This document shows, one piece after another, positions 48,350-57,095 of a stretch of DNA of 64,000 nucleotides (its first letter is position 1; every line of letters starts with the position of its first letter). The DNA lies in the NCBI GenBank assembly GCA_033391075.1, contig JAWPMV010000001.1, forward strand, positions 4,588,001 to 4,652,000. Reading direction: 5' to 3'. The notes under the pieces are model-generated. The model made no database searches, was not told the DNA's origin, and saw nothing but the letters and a program-made list of their open reading frames with translations. This DNA comes from Bacteroidia bacterium (GTDB lineage: Bacteria; Bacteroidota; Bacteroidia; J057). The position numbers and the translations under genes are program-made.

Positions 48350-48862
48350 ATGAAGGTTTATTTCAAGTATGATTCTCATTCCAGCTATCCCCCGGAGCCT
48401 AAAAAGCCATCTTCTAACAGAAGTAGTCAGGGACGGATACTTCCTATTGCCCTTGACAAAGATGGCAGGGAGCGTATAGGTTTTGTAGCAAGCAATCAGT
48501 ACGAGCCATATGCACTCTTTCATCAGGACCCATCTTTCATCAGCCAGCTTCCCAACTTTCATTTACCTATGCTGGGAGTTGGTTCTTTCCGTGCATTTGA
48601 AATTGCGGACGACTCTATGTTTCCGCTGGAGCCTGGCGCTATTGTCGTAGGAGAATATGTGAAAGACTGGGCAAAAATTCAGAGCGGAAAGACCTGTATA
48701 GTCCTACATAAAGAGCAGGGACTGCTATATAGAAGGCTTTACCCTCAGAAACAAAAAGCGGAAATACGGCTGCTTGCAGAGAAAAGAAGCTATCCGGCCC
48801 AAACCGTTAATCTTAGCAAAATCTATGAAATATGGCAGGCGCGAATGTTCATGAGCCTCTAA
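48350..48862 (+). CDS. S24/LexA-like protein without HTH and without catalytic Lys (probable inactive paralogue)
   Basis: This 170-residue protein aligns by eye with the C-terminal two thirds of the next gene's product, from ILPIALDKDGRERI to EIWQARMFMS. It lacks any DNA-binding HTH. The catalytic Ser is kept (ADDSM, Ser89), but the partner Lys is Arg128 (YRRL where the paralogue has YKRI). The Ala-Gly self-cleavage pair of the paralogue is replaced by Glu52-Pro53. It should therefore neither bind DNA nor self-cleave, yet may keep the dimer surface. It is 134 nt upstream of its paralogue and could act as a decoy or partner subunit. Confidence 0.8.
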   Translation: MKVYFKYDSHSSYPPEPKKPSSNRSSQGRILPIALDKDGRERIGFVASNQYEPYALFHQDPSFISQLPNFHLPMLGVGSFRAFEIADDSMFPLEPGAIVVGEYVKDWAKIQSGKTCIVLHKEQGLLYRRLYPQKQKAEIRLLAEKRSYPAQTVNLSKIYEIWQARMFMSL

Positions 48863-48966
48863 AAAGTAAATACTTTTTGCATTTTGCGGAAAAAATGGAA
48901 AAATCTCTATGTTTTTTTAGTTTATATACTAATTTTTTTATAGTTTGCTAAAAAATAGTTCACGCT

Positions 48967-48981
48967 GCTAATCGAATTAGC
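48967..48981 (+). promoter_or_regulatory. GCTAAT palindrome before the LexA-like gene
   Basis: GCTAAT-CGA-ATTAGC is a perfect 6-bp inverted repeat 15 bp before the ATG at 48997. GCTAAT also occurs twice upstream of the paralogue, which supports a shared autoregulatory site. Confidence 0.45.
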
Positions 48982-48996
48982 CTAAAATCAAACGTT

Positions 48997-49821
48997 ATGG
49001 GAGACAAAGACTCGATGGTTATCGACAAAAACCTAAAATTTCTGCGCAAGAGAAAGGGGCTTACCCAACAGGAGCTAGCCAATCACCTTGGAGTAAGGAG
49101 AGCTTCTATAGGTGCTTATGAAGAAGGAAGGGCGACTCCCCGCTATGATACCCTTGAGCGGGTATCTGATTTCTTCCAGGTTTCTATAGACTTGCTTATC
49201 AAAGAAAACCTTACGGAACTCAGTGAGGAGGATTTTGAAAATTTCCAAAATGCGAAAGCAATGATGGATGCGGAAGGAAAAAGACTTCGTATCCTTCCTA
49301 TTACTATAGACCATGAAGGCCGGGAAAACATCGAATATGTTCACCAAAAGGCATCTGCCGGTTACCTCAATGGATATGCCGATCCTGAGTATATCGAAGA
49401 GCTCCCCAAGTTCCAGCTTCCTATGTTGGGCAATGGAACATACAGAGCTTTTGAGATTAAGGGAGATTCTATGCTTCCTTTGAAACCAGGCACCATTGTT
49501 ATTGGTGAGTATGTACAGGATTGGACAGAGATCAAAGAAGGTCAAACCTATATTCTAGCATCCACTACTGAAGGTGTTGTTTATAAGCGAATCTTTAACC
49601 GAACTGCCAATGACGGTAGCAAATTGTTGACCTTGAAGTCAGACAATCCAGCTTATCCGCCCTATGAGGTTCGTATAGAAGATGTGCGGGAGATTTGGAA
49701 AGCAAAGATGTTCATGAGCCAGGAATTCCCTGATCCGGATATCTCTCTTGAGAAACTCTCCTCGATCGTTCTTGACTTACAACAGGAAGTCATTCGCATG
49801 AAACGTCCTGGCAGTAATTAA
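48997..49821 (+). CDS. XRE/S24 (LexA-like) self-cleaving transcriptional repressor
   Basis: This 274-residue protein has an XRE HTH at about 11-66 (LKFLRKRKGLTQQELANHLGVRRASIGAYEEGRATPRYDTLERV) and a peptidase S24 domain at about 145-235. The cleavage pair Ala121-Gly122 lies in KASAGYLNGY. The catalytic dyad is Ser158 (KGDSM) and Lys197 (VVYKRI). This is the pattern of LexA- and phage-repressor-like proteins that cleave themselves when activated by RecA or another signal, and are abundant in Bacteroidota. A C-terminal 35-residue extension with a short coil follows. No SOS or phage gene is adjacent. It may repress itself and its truncated paralogue. Confidence 0.9.
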   Translation: MGDKDSMVIDKNLKFLRKRKGLTQQELANHLGVRRASIGAYEEGRATPRYDTLERVSDFFQVSIDLLIKENLTELSEEDFENFQNAKAMMDAEGKRLRILPITIDHEGRENIEYVHQKASAGYLNGYADPEYIEELPKFQLPMLGNGTYRAFEIKGDSMLPLKPGTIVIGEYVQDWTEIKEGQTYILASTTEGVVYKRIFNRTANDGSKLLTLKSDNPAYPPYEVRIEDVREIWKAKMFMSQEFPDPDISLEKLSSIVLDLQQEVIRMKRPGSN

Positions 49822-52948: not shown

Positions 52949-54601
52949 ATGTCAGATCTGAACACTACTATCCCAGTCATTGTACTCGCATATGCCAATG
53001 AACGTAGCGAAAAAGGCTTCCTAAGACAATTGACTACGGAGTTGAAAACTGTCATGCAGGCCCTTGAGCCTTCGGTACAAAAAGGCCGGGTACACCTCAA
53101 AGTAATCCCGGCAGCCACACAAGAGGAAATCGTTGAGGTTTTTCAGGACGAATGGTACAGTAATCGCATTCAGATTTTTCATTACGGAGGGCATGCTGCT
53201 AAAGATCAATTGTGGCTGGAAACAGAAGATGGAGGAAACGAATCTTTTTTCTCTCTGGGATTGGCGAAATTCCTGGGAGCTCAGAAAGGTCTTCGACTGG
53301 TTTTCTTAAATGGATGTGCTACAGAGGACCATGCCAGACTTATGTTGGCAGAGGATATCCCAGCGATCATTGCTACCTCTGAAAAGATCAATGATCTTAT
53401 GGCCAGACGCTTTGCAGAAGTATTTTATTCAGGCATGGCAGGAGGCGCATCTATAGAAGAATCTTTTGCTGAGGCCGAAGGAATCTTACTAGGTTCATAT
53501 GGACCAAGTAGTTTTGTCATCGAAACAGGCAAACGATCTCTATACTGGGAAGAAGAGGAAAGCGAACAAGGGCTTGACCTTCCCTGGAAGCTGGCCCTTA
53601 AAGAAGGGAGCTCCTGGTTTCCGGCACAGTGGCGTTTATTTTACAAGTTGGATGAGGATGCAAATGAGGATGAAGAATCCATAGATGCCAAAGAGTTTGT
53701 TGGGGAGACCATCAACAATTACCGCATACTTGAGCTTTTGGGTTCGGGGAGCCTGGGTTCAGTCTATAAGGCACTACATATCGGATTAAATGAAGAACGT
53801 GCTATAAAAATTACACACCGGGTAATCGAAGGTTACGATTATCTGAAAGACATAGTTCTTGCAGGAAATAAAGGATTGGCTTCCATCAAACATGCCAACG
53901 TGGTCAAGTTCTATGATGTTGGAGAAGTGCAACTTTTTGGCCAAAAACGCATGTATATGGTCATGGAATTGGTGAACGGAGACCGCCTCGATAAAGTTGG
54001 TATTGAGAGCCTTTGTACTGAGCCTGCAAGCCTGGTTGACCTGGTCGTTCAGATCGCGTCGGGTCTTGAAGCCGCACATAAAACCAGCTTCACTGATGCC
54101 GCCGGTATGCCACGCGAAGGAATCATTCACGGTAACTTGAAAACTCGAAAAATCCTTCTCAGTGAAGGAAAAAGCCCTAAATTGATTGATTTCCTTTTCG
54201 CAGACATCAGCCGTAATTATCAAATAAAACTAGATATTCCTGAAGACGTACAGAAGAAAAAGAAAGCCGAAAGACTTTCTCGGTATTTTCCTGAAGAGGT
54301 TCTTTCCGGCAAATCTCCTGTCAGCAAAAAAACAGATATCTATTCTTTAGGAGCTGTATTATTTGAAGTATTCTCAAGAGGTAAGGCAATCGCAGATTTT
54401 GACTTCAAATCGGTAAATTCCCTTCATAGATTTGTAAAAAGCGAAACTCAGATTATTCCGTTAAATGTGAGTAAAGCTATATTCAAAGCGACCCGAAAAG
54501 ATCCAGACGAGAGATACGATGCAATGAATGAGATGATTCAGGACTTGCTGCTAAACGTATCCTGGTTCAAAAAAATCCTTTACTGGTTGCGCAGAAAATA
54601 G
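52949..54601 (+). CDS. CHAT-domain protease fused to a pseudokinase
   Basis: This 550-residue cytoplasmic protein begins with a CHAT (caspase HetF-associated) peptidase domain at about 8-190. The catalytic pair is intact: His82 in FHYGGHA and Cys123 in FLNGCAT. Residues 255-540 form a Ser/Thr kinase fold with the glycine loop GSGSLGSVYKA (265-275), Lys287 of the VAIK position and Asp463 of helix F (KTDIYSLG). However, HRD reads HGN (Asp to Asn396), the metal-binding Asn is Lys401, and DFG reads DFL. The kinase is thus predicted inactive, perhaps serving as a ligand or partner sensor for the protease. A basic aromatic tail (SWFKKILYWLRRK) could touch membrane. The gene stands alone with 393 bp behind it. 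Confidence 0.88.
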   Translation: MSDLNTTIPVIVLAYANERSEKGFLRQLTTELKTVMQALEPSVQKGRVHLKVIPAATQEEIVEVFQDEWYSNRIQIFHYGGHAAKDQLWLETEDGGNESFFSLGLAKFLGAQKGLRLVFLNGCATEDHARLMLAEDIPAIIATSEKINDLMARRFAEVFYSGMAGGASIEESFAEAEGILLGSYGPSSFVIETGKRSLYWEEEESEQGLDLPWKLALKEGSSWFPAQWRLFYKLDEDANEDEESIDAKEFVGETINNYRILELLGSGSLGSVYKALHIGLNEERAIKITHRVIEGYDYLKDIVLAGNKGLASIKHANVVKFYDVGEVQLFGQKRMYMVMELVNGDRLDKVGIESLCTEPASLVDLVVQIASGLEAAHKTSFTDAAGMPREGIIHGNLKTRKILLSEGKSPKLIDFLFADISRNYQIKLDIPEDVQKKKKAERLSRYFPEEVLSGKSPVSKKTDIYSLGAVLFEVFSRGKAIADFDFKSVNSLHRFVKSETQIIPLNVSKAIFKATRKDPDERYDAMNEMIQDLLLNVSWFKKILYWLRRK

Positions 54602-54994: not shown

Positions 54995-55438
54995 ATGCAG
55001 AAGGTATCTAATGGCGAATTAAACAACTTGCAAGGAACGTCCAACCTGGAGAGACAATTACTTATGATGAGAGATGCTTTTCGTCAGCATCAGAATGAAA
55101 TCAGAAAAAAGTATAAAATCTCTGCCAATGAGATGGAGATCATATTATATGTAAATGATTTTGGTCCTCAGAGAATGAAGGGAGTCGGTGAGCAGTTCAA
55201 AATAAAATTCAGCACACTAACCAGCCTGGTTGACAAAATTGAGAGATTGAATCTCGTAAAAAGAGTCAACTCTAAAGAAGACCGCCGTTCAATCCTGGTA
55301 ACTATTACCAAGAAAGGCAAAAAAATGCTAGAAGAGTACAACAGTCAAATCAAATCTCTGGCTGATCGTATTACTGAGATTACTCAGTCTGAAGACTTAC
55401 CTCAGATTGTAGCAACTTTAGAGCAGGCAACTGCTTAA
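54995..55438 (+). CDS. MarR-family transcriptional regulator
   Basis: This 147-residue protein has a MarR winged helix: ISANEMEIILYVNDFGPQRMKGVGEQFKIKFSTLTSLVDKIERL for the HTH and VKRVNSKEDRRSILVTITKKGKKML for the wing with the conserved DRR turn. The N-terminal and C-terminal helices form the dimer arm. It differs from the MarR at 19964 and is not a close copy. It lies between the CHAT-pseudokinase gene and the GH3 gene, each with its own gap, so no operon is evident. A bidirectional-looking terminator follows 88 nt downstream. Confidence 0.9.
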   Translation: MQKVSNGELNNLQGTSNLERQLLMMRDAFRQHQNEIRKKYKISANEMEIILYVNDFGPQRMKGVGEQFKIKFSTLTSLVDKIERLNLVKRVNSKEDRRSILVTITKKGKKMLEEYNSQIKSLADRITEITQSEDLPQIVATLEQATA

Positions 55439-55526: not shown

Positions 55527-55556
55527 AAAGGCTGCATGTTTTTCATGCAGCCTTTG
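55527..55556. terminator. Terminator between marR and the GH3 gene
   Basis: AAAGGCTGCATG and CATGCAGCCTTT form a perfect 12-bp stem around five T, with A-rich sequence before it. The T tract after it is short (TTTGATTATTTT). Confidence 0.75.
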
Positions 55557-55582
55557 ATTATTTTACAGCACTCATTTTTTCT

Positions 55583-55590
55583 TACCTTTG
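55583..55590 (+). promoter_or_regulatory. -7 box directly before the GH3 gene
   Basis: TACCTTTG matches TAnnTTTG and ends 5 nt before the ATG at 55596. This supports that start over the ATG at 55536, because the transcript would begin at or just before 55596. Confidence 0.5.
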
Positions 55591-55595
55591 CTGCC

Positions 55596-57095
55596 ATGAG
55601 TCTCAAGACTTTTGTCAGTAAAATATGGGCCCGTTCACTCGCTCGCAAGTATCAAAAGATGAGCGAAAATGCCCTCAGCCTCCAGGAAAAAACTTTCCAT
55701 CAACTTATTCAGACGGCAAAGCATACCGCCTTTGGGCAGGCCCATGATTTTGCCTCGATAAAAAAGCCTGATGATTTCAGGAAGAATGTTCCCATCAGGG
55801 ACTATGAAAAGGCCAAAGAATGGTTTGATCGAATCTACCAGGGAGAAGCAAATGTAAGTTGGCCCGGCAAACCATTATACCTCGCAAAAACATCAGGAAC
55901 CACCTCCGGAGCCAAATACATTCCCATTTCAAAAGCCTCTATCCGGAAACAAGTCAATGCAGCTCGTGATGCCTTGCTGCTCTATATAGCTGAAAGCGGT
56001 AAAGCATCCTTTCTCGATGGAAAAATGATGTTTCTATCTGGTAGTCCTGAAATAGAGAATAATAAACATGGCCTACGAACGGGTAGGCTCTCCGGGATCG
56101 TCAATCATTTTGTACCCAATTACCTCCAAAGCAATAAGGTTCCCAGTTATGAAGCTAATATTATCGATGATTGGGAGGTGAAAGTAAAACGTATTGTAGA
56201 AGAGGTAAAAGATAAAGACCTCCGCCTCATCTCCGGGATTCCTCCCTGGGTACAGATGTTCTTTGAAGAACTTGAAGCCCAAACAGGAAAAACGCCCCTG
56301 GAAGTATGGCCAAATCTTAGCCTGTTTGTTCAGGGAGGAGTTGATTATAATCCCTACAAACCCATATTCGAAGGATACTTTGGGAGCAATGTGGACATCT
56401 CAGAAGTTTATCCCGCTTCAGAGGGATTTTTCGCCTTTCAAAACTCTCAAAAAGATGATGGCCTTCTTCTATTGCCAGATCAGGGAATTTACTACGAATT
56501 CATCCCTATGGATGAGTATGGGAAAGAAAATCCAAAGCGACTAGGTCTTTCCGAAGTCAAACTCAACGAACAATATGCCCTCATCATTTCTACCAATGCA
56601 GGACTTTGGGCCTATGACATCGGAGATACCATAAAATTCACTTCCTTAAATCCCTGGAAGATCCGGGTGTCTGGCAGGGTCAAGCATTTCATCAGTGCCT
56701 TTGGAGAACATGTAATCCAGGAAGAAGTCAATAAGGCTATGATTGCTGCCACAGCAACTACAGGTGCAAGTTTTCAGGAATTTACCGTAGCCCCTCTCAT
56801 CAAGGAAGAAAAAGGAACTTCTGCACATGAGTGGTTTGTAGAGTTTAATAAAGAACCAGAAAACATGGAAGCATTTGCTGAGATCCTGGATGCTGAAATG
56901 CGAAAGCTCAATCCTTATTATGAAGACCTGCGTGCGGGTAACATCCTCAAGATTGCACAGATCAGAAAATTGAAAAACAATGCTTGCCGTGATTACATGA
57001 AATCCATTGGAAAGTTGGGCGGGCAGAATAAATTTCCGAGATTAAGTAATGAACGGAAGATTGCAGAGGCGCTAAACGGATTTATTTTAGATTAG
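55596..57095 (+). CDS. GH3-family acyl-acid-amido synthetase-like protein
   Basis: This 499-residue cytoplasmic protein belongs to the bacterial branch of the GH3 family, adenylating enzymes that in plants join hormones to amino acids. The ATP-binding signature is LAKTSGTTSGAKYIPIS (about 95-111). The second motif is SEVYPASEGFFAFQ, and the YDIGDTIKFTSLNPWKIRVSGR block closes the N-terminal domain. Bacterial GH3 substrates are mostly unknown. An ATG 60 nt upstream is in frame but lies within the terminator and promoter region, so 55596 is chosen. Confidence 0.92.
   Translation: MSLKTFVSKIWARSLARKYQKMSENALSLQEKTFHQLIQTAKHTAFGQAHDFASIKKPDDFRKNVPIRDYEKAKEWFDRIYQGEANVSWPGKPLYLAKTSGTTSGAKYIPISKASIRKQVNAARDALLLYIAESGKASFLDGKMMFLSGSPEIENNKHGLRTGRLSGIVNHFVPNYLQSNKVPSYEANIIDDWEVKVKRIVEEVKDKDLRLISGIPPWVQMFFEELEAQTGKTPLEVWPNLSLFVQGGVDYNPYKPIFEGYFGSNVDISEVYPASEGFFAFQNSQKDDGLLLLPDQGIYYEFIPMDEYGKENPKRLGLSEVKLNEQYALIISTNAGLWAYDIGDTIKFTSLNPWKIRVSGRVKHFISAFGEHVIQEEVNKAMIAATATTGASFQEFTVAPLIKEEKGTSAHEWFVEFNKEPENMEAFAEILDAEMRKLNPYYEDLRAGNILKIAQIRKLKNNACRDYMKSIGKLGGQNKFPRLSNERKIAEALNGFILD

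Follow-up and report, generated by a model that had tools for sequence, protein, structure and literature searches.

In the stretch of DNA analysed here, a 64,000-nucleotide window from a Bacteroidia bacterium, a single gene joins an N-terminal CHAT (caspase-like) protease domain to a C-terminal kinase fold devoid of catalytic residues (Table 1). Because the catalytic losses are found in every relative examined and the gene is a fixed, inherited core gene of one Bacteroidota family, the dead kinase is most likely a switch for the protease rather than a decayed enzyme. We give an even chance to the proposal that the protein, here called CHAT-pseudokinase, is a signalling protease, inherited vertically and present in single copy, whose pseudokinase would gate the CHAT domain in a layout like that of MLKL.

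Table 1. Features of the CHAT-pseudokinase locus (positions in the window)
Feature	Position	Strand	Remarks
CHAT-pseudokinase gene	52949..54601	+	ATG start, 550 aa plus stop; orthologues in 13/13 family genomes
N-terminal CHAT (caspase-like) domain, about residues 9-222	52973..53614	+	Pfam PF12770; SAVED-CHAT 8tl0 by sequence and fold
CHAT catalytic His82 (HYGGH)	53192..53194	+	aligns with HFIGH of SAVED-CHAT; kept in all covering orthologues
CHAT catalytic Cys123 (NGC)	53315..53317	+	aligns with NAC of SAVED-CHAT; kept in all covering orthologues
Pseudokinase domain, residues 250-535	53696..54553	+	Pfam PF00069; PknA/PknB fold, Z about 24
Retained VAIK Lys287	53807..53809	+	14/14
Gly306 at the alphaC-Glu site (Glu lost)	53864..53866	+	Glu in 0/14 pseudokinases vs 14/14 active kinases
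Region with family-specific insertion before the catalytic loop, about residues 378-393	54080..54127	+	15/15 pseudokinases
HGNLKTRK, residues 394-401: HRD to HGN, metal-binding Asn to Lys401	54128..54151	+	H, G, N and Lys401 invariant, 15/15
DFL, residues 414-416: DFG Gly replaced, Asp kept	54188..54196	+	Asp 15/15; third residue L 8, M 6, A 1
Basic aromatic amphipathic C-terminal tail (WFKKILYWLRRK)	54563..54598	+	similar orthologue tails; helix in model
MarR-family regulator, conserved 3' neighbour	54995..55438	+	orthologue in 13/13 family genomes, adjoins fusion in 10/13
GH3-like acyl-adenylase (distantly OlsH-like), after MarR	55536..57095	+	NCBIfam NF052613, 411 bits, below 620 cut-off; order-wide

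The domain anatomy is firm. A Pfam search of the 550-residue protein placed CHAT (PF12770) at residues 21-178, scoring 31 bits against a cut-off of 24, and Pkinase (PF00069) at residues 258-483, scoring 93.8 bits against 31.7; it gave no SAVED or TPR match. The N-terminal half has the profile, the caspase-like fold and the His/Cys dyad of a CHAT peptidase. Its profile finds SAVED-CHAT of type III CRISPR (PDB 8tl0) in sequence searches (E 2e-13) with the His and Cys motifs aligned, and the modelled CHAT part alone matches the same protein (Z 16.0, rmsd 3.6, 188 residues aligned) well above the next folds, caspases and separase (Z about 10). The earlier note had claimed an intact dyad; its numbering of His82 and Cys123 is correct, and both residues are kept in every orthologue copy that covers them. 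The kinase part of the model matches PknA (Z 24.3, rmsd 2.8, 250 residues aligned). The whole-chain model has a mean pLDDT of 75.4; that of CHAT alone reaches a modest 64.4 and is poor at residues 83-101 after the His, and the orientation of the two domains is not informative because the pTM of the whole-protein model is 0.55.

Residue states were compared in an alignment of the family pseudokinases with 14 active bacterial kinases. The pseudokinases amount to 15 domains, the second domains of two tandem forms included, and one of them is a C-terminal fragment, leaving 14 at N-terminal positions. From the residues expected of an active kinase, the HRD Asp, the metal-binding Asn and the DFG Gly are lost in 15/15 domains and the alphaC Glu in 14/14, while the DFG Asp is kept (15/15), as are the VAIK Lys (14/14) and the APE Glu (15/15). 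Two features had been overlooked in the earlier note. One is the loss of the alphaC Glu, replaced by Gly in 11 of the 14 domains; the other is an insertion of about 11 residues just before HGN, with Gly386 and Gly391 invariant, that occurs in all the pseudokinases and in none of the active Bacteroidota kinases used for comparison. Some family members have a partly eroded Gly-loop. The cleft nevertheless ranks with the best conserved parts of the domain: eleven of the 19 canonical kinase positions belong to the 22 columns, out of 280, that do not vary (hypergeometric p 2e-9, a guide only, the test taking columns as independent and ignoring kinship). The altered HGN and Lys401 vary no more than the retained positions, which speaks for selection on the dead state, and the domain is probably unable to transfer phosphate. 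The motifs named in the earlier note are confirmed (Lys287, HGN 394-396, Lys401, DFL 414-416) and their changes are family-wide, which rules out the private decay of one kinase and makes the fusion of CHAT to a catalytically compromised kinase in a single chain a conserved state.

All 13 family genomes carry an orthologue (about 35-58% identity), one locus each, and none of the nine other genomes of the order does. The orthologue of genome G006 is split across two contig ends (C43, C84), and some other copies are cut by contig ends. The tandem forms, also overlooked earlier, belong to two genomes and carry HGN in both pseudokinase copies. Homologues with intact HRD and DFG, which the earlier note would have taken as the sign of private decay, were not seen among the orthologues, and neither was a family-wide loss of the CHAT His or Cys. 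CHAT fusions with an intact kinase were likewise not found among 22 genomes of the order, nor among the top few candidates per genome in 395 phylum and 395 class genomes, a search that a divergent fusion could escape, nor by a pattern scan of one genome per species in 84,980 species, limited to the pattern used. CHAT-kinase fusions of independent origin may nevertheless exist beyond Bacteroidota.

Phylogeny traces the fusion and its pseudokinase to one origin. All the pseudokinases, from 13 genomes, form a single clade against the 14 active kinases (support 100/100), and all the CHAT domains of the fusion form a single clade among their paralogues (support 99/97). This CHAT clade groups with the same-genome proteins L076 (CHAT-nSTAND1-FGE), L077 (CHAT-nSTAND1-WD40), L087 and L078 (CHAT-iSTAND) with support 98/97. 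L077, L076 and L078 are the nearest CHAT relatives; they have an intact dyad and, like CHAT-pseudokinase, place the effector first and the switch behind, but they use a STAND or inactive-STAND fold as the switch where CHAT-pseudokinase has a kinase fold. From the topology, the dead kinase would therefore occupy the STAND or inactive-STAND position of its near relatives. The idea of the earlier note that a pseudokinase stands in place of the sensor thus holds, related CHAT proteins of the genome carrying STAND, WD40 or TPR modules there.

The same genome encodes about 20 CHAT proteins (L076-L093), most of them with the same N-terminal CHAT type, whose C-terminal modules are nSTAND1-FGE, nSTAND1-WD40, iSTAND, NB-ARC-TPR, UvrD-like helicase, WD40, TPR or none. 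Five of them (L079, L081, L083, L084 and L085) and L149, from another family, share a C-terminal half without a Pfam match, which contains a motif resembling LNLSPFVIDKN and may be an undescribed domain. The paralogues L089, L090 (325 aa) and L092 have no catalytic His, and L092 has no Cys either, so pseudo-proteases exist beside active ones. L091 and L093 are LRR-Roc-COR (Roco) proteins with CHAT at the C-terminus. The 1608-residue CHAT protein at L082:4417-9240 (minus strand) contains near-identical WD-type repeats, which suggests a recent repeat expansion.

The genomic context is conserved as well. A divergent gene (52770 and down) lies upstream, and 393 bp separate the fusion from the start of the next gene downstream, in agreement with the single-gene unit described in the earlier note. 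The neighbours are OstA-like, D-Ala-D-Ala dipeptidase and LexA-like regulator genes, followed by MarR, the GH3 enzyme and, judging from sequence, trp genes. The order fusion-MarR-GH3 recurs in most family genomes, and the three in which MarR does not adjoin the fusion belong to one genus. At 48350-49821 of the window lie two adjacent LexA/S24-like genes, the first of them short, without HTH and without a Pfam match. When ten neighbours were scanned with PADLOC, only the LexA-like regulator was matched, through generic HTH models, and no Cas genes were found; CHAT-pseudokinase itself matched generic kinase models only. No full-length counterpart of it came up in searches of plasmids and phages, and a scan of viral contigs returned two kinases only, both nearer to active kinases and without CHAT similarity. 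The patchy distribution and the defence neighbours of a defence island are thus missing, and neither the defence-island setting raised by the earlier note nor a mobile-element one is supported, given the synteny, the presence in 13/13 genomes, the housekeeping surroundings and the missing full-length plasmid or phage match. From its family-wide presence, synteny and surroundings the gene looks like part of the inherited core rather than a passenger of a defence island, although an immune role is still conceivable.

Several known systems share parts of this architecture. SAVED-CHAT has the same CHAT fold and aligned catalytic motifs, but its CHAT domain comes after the cyclic-nucleotide sensor SAVED and its gene lies in a CRISPR locus, whereas in CHAT-pseudokinase CHAT is N-terminal, the pseudokinase follows and the scanned neighbours include no CRISPR genes. 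Csx29 (TPR-CHAT) of type III-E CRISPR (PMC10028731) likewise keeps a CHAT protease under the control of another module; it has, however, a TPR sensor and a Cas7-11 partner, neither of which CHAT-pseudokinase possesses, and it was not among the matches listed by sequence or fold. CHAT-pseudokinase thus shows neither the SAVED or TPR sensor nor the CRISPR-Cas neighbours of CRISPR-linked CHAT proteins. With Hanks kinases of the PknA/PknB type it has the kinase fold in common, but it differs from them in the missing catalytic residues, in the insertion before the catalytic loop and in having no transmembrane or PASTA part. The families ActPs1-3, CP1, DYD and DLHK, catalogued in a review (PMC12599244), are likewise degenerate bacterial Ser/Thr kinase folds; DLHK is described there as keeping the HRD Asp and the metal-binding Asn and losing the VAIK Lys, the opposite of CHAT-pseudokinase, which therefore falls outside DLHK.

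We propose that the N-terminal CHAT domain, by virtue of its dyad, would be a proteolytic effector and that the pseudokinase, located where STAND-type NTPase switches lie, would be its built-in regulator. Because selection keeps the cleft (Lys287, Lys401 and Asp414 are invariant), its likeliest role is to bind a nucleotide or another ligand, perhaps metal-free with Lys401 in the former place of the metal-coordinating Asn, or to dock a partner; cleft conservation can also reflect fold stability or protein docking. The bound state might then hold or release the CHAT protease. In MLKL, an N-terminal effector is followed by a C-terminal pseudokinase gate, and the pseudokinase of CHAT-pseudokinase would act on CHAT as that gate acts on the N-terminal killer domain. 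The likeness to MLKL, a protein of vertebrate necroptosis, is one of analogy only, as the effectors are not homologous and MLKL kills by membrane damage and not by proteolysis; the HGN motif of JAK JH2 domains is also an analogy only. The basic aromatic tail reported in the earlier note is present, recurs among orthologues and is modelled as a helix. In complete orthologues with one pseudokinase it is basic and aromatic with a net charge of +3 to +7, and in the tandem forms, where it follows the second pseudokinase, it is less basic (+1 and +3). Its composition suggests that the helix may place the protein at the membrane.

Other functions have been weighed against gating by the pseudokinase. 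In the view of the earlier note the protein is an anti-phage or abortive-infection effector, the pseudokinase sensing a phage product and the CHAT protease killing or arresting the cell. Dead kinases have been reported among the effector modules of vWA-MoxR conflict systems (PMC7159879), which is consistent with this view, as are the membership of its CHAT in an expanded set joined to STAND, iSTAND, NB-ARC, WD40 and TPR modules typical of conflict systems and the fact that its nearest solved relative is a CRISPR effector. A single-copy gene with conserved synteny in all family genomes, amid housekeeping genes, with neither a defence-specific PADLOC match among its neighbours, nor other than generic kinase matches of its own, nor a full-length plasmid or phage match, argues the contrary. 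Defence genes usually turn over faster, and we consider an anti-phage role rather doubtful. The tail and the pseudokinase might instead sense the state of the membrane or its lipids and lead to cleavage of a regulator, a housekeeping proteolysis for the control of envelope lipids exerted perhaps together with MarR and the GH3-type enzyme. The equally family-wide and mostly adjoining MarR gene, the basic aromatic tail and the resemblance of the next gene to OlsH of ornithine-lipid synthesis, the subject of PMC12493201, point in this direction, but the fusion lies away from MarR in one genus, the GH3 gene occurs throughout the order and scores far under the OlsH cut-off, and no operator-like sequence common to the regions upstream of the two genes, fusion and MarR, was found. 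Lipid control seems unlikely.

The cleft could also perform some chemistry other than phosphorylation, for instance AMP or glutamate transfer as in SelO and SidJ, and so modify CHAT or a partner. The ATP-contact residues Lys287 and Asp414 are invariant, and pseudokinases with new chemistry are known (PMC12599244). The metal-binding Asn is nevertheless lost and HGNxxxxK offers no second acidic residue, while SelO, whose motif is given as Hgvmntdn in the same source, keeps an Asn at that site; we find such a transferase very improbable. That the domain is still a weak protein kinase is hardly credible: the VAIK Lys and the DFG Asp are kept, and some pseudokinases retain low activity, but the alphaC Glu, the HRD Asp, the metal-binding Asn and the DFG Gly are missing in every covering orthologue.

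The pseudokinase-gated signalling protease that we favour concerns two poorly charted groups, since bacterial pseudokinases are mostly uncharacterised and the sensors of CHAT proteases are known in few cases only. No description of a CHAT-pseudokinase fusion was found in the open-licence literature searched, which is weak evidence, and the pseudokinase review PMC12599244 mentions neither CHAT nor caspase apart from author names. Tentatively, and below an even chance, the protein may be a convergent bacterial counterpart of pseudokinase-gated cell-death executioners, in which a nucleotide-sensing pseudokinase replaced a STAND NTPase and became fixed as a core gene. A putative sensor, a putative effector and perhaps a membrane anchor are united in one family-conserved chain of 550 residues with an invariant altered active site, and the gating of a caspase-like protease by a pseudokinase is therefore directly testable. 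The finding suggests that CHAT effectors exchange their switches among STAND, inactive STAND and dead kinase, nucleotide-binding folds that are unrelated to one another.
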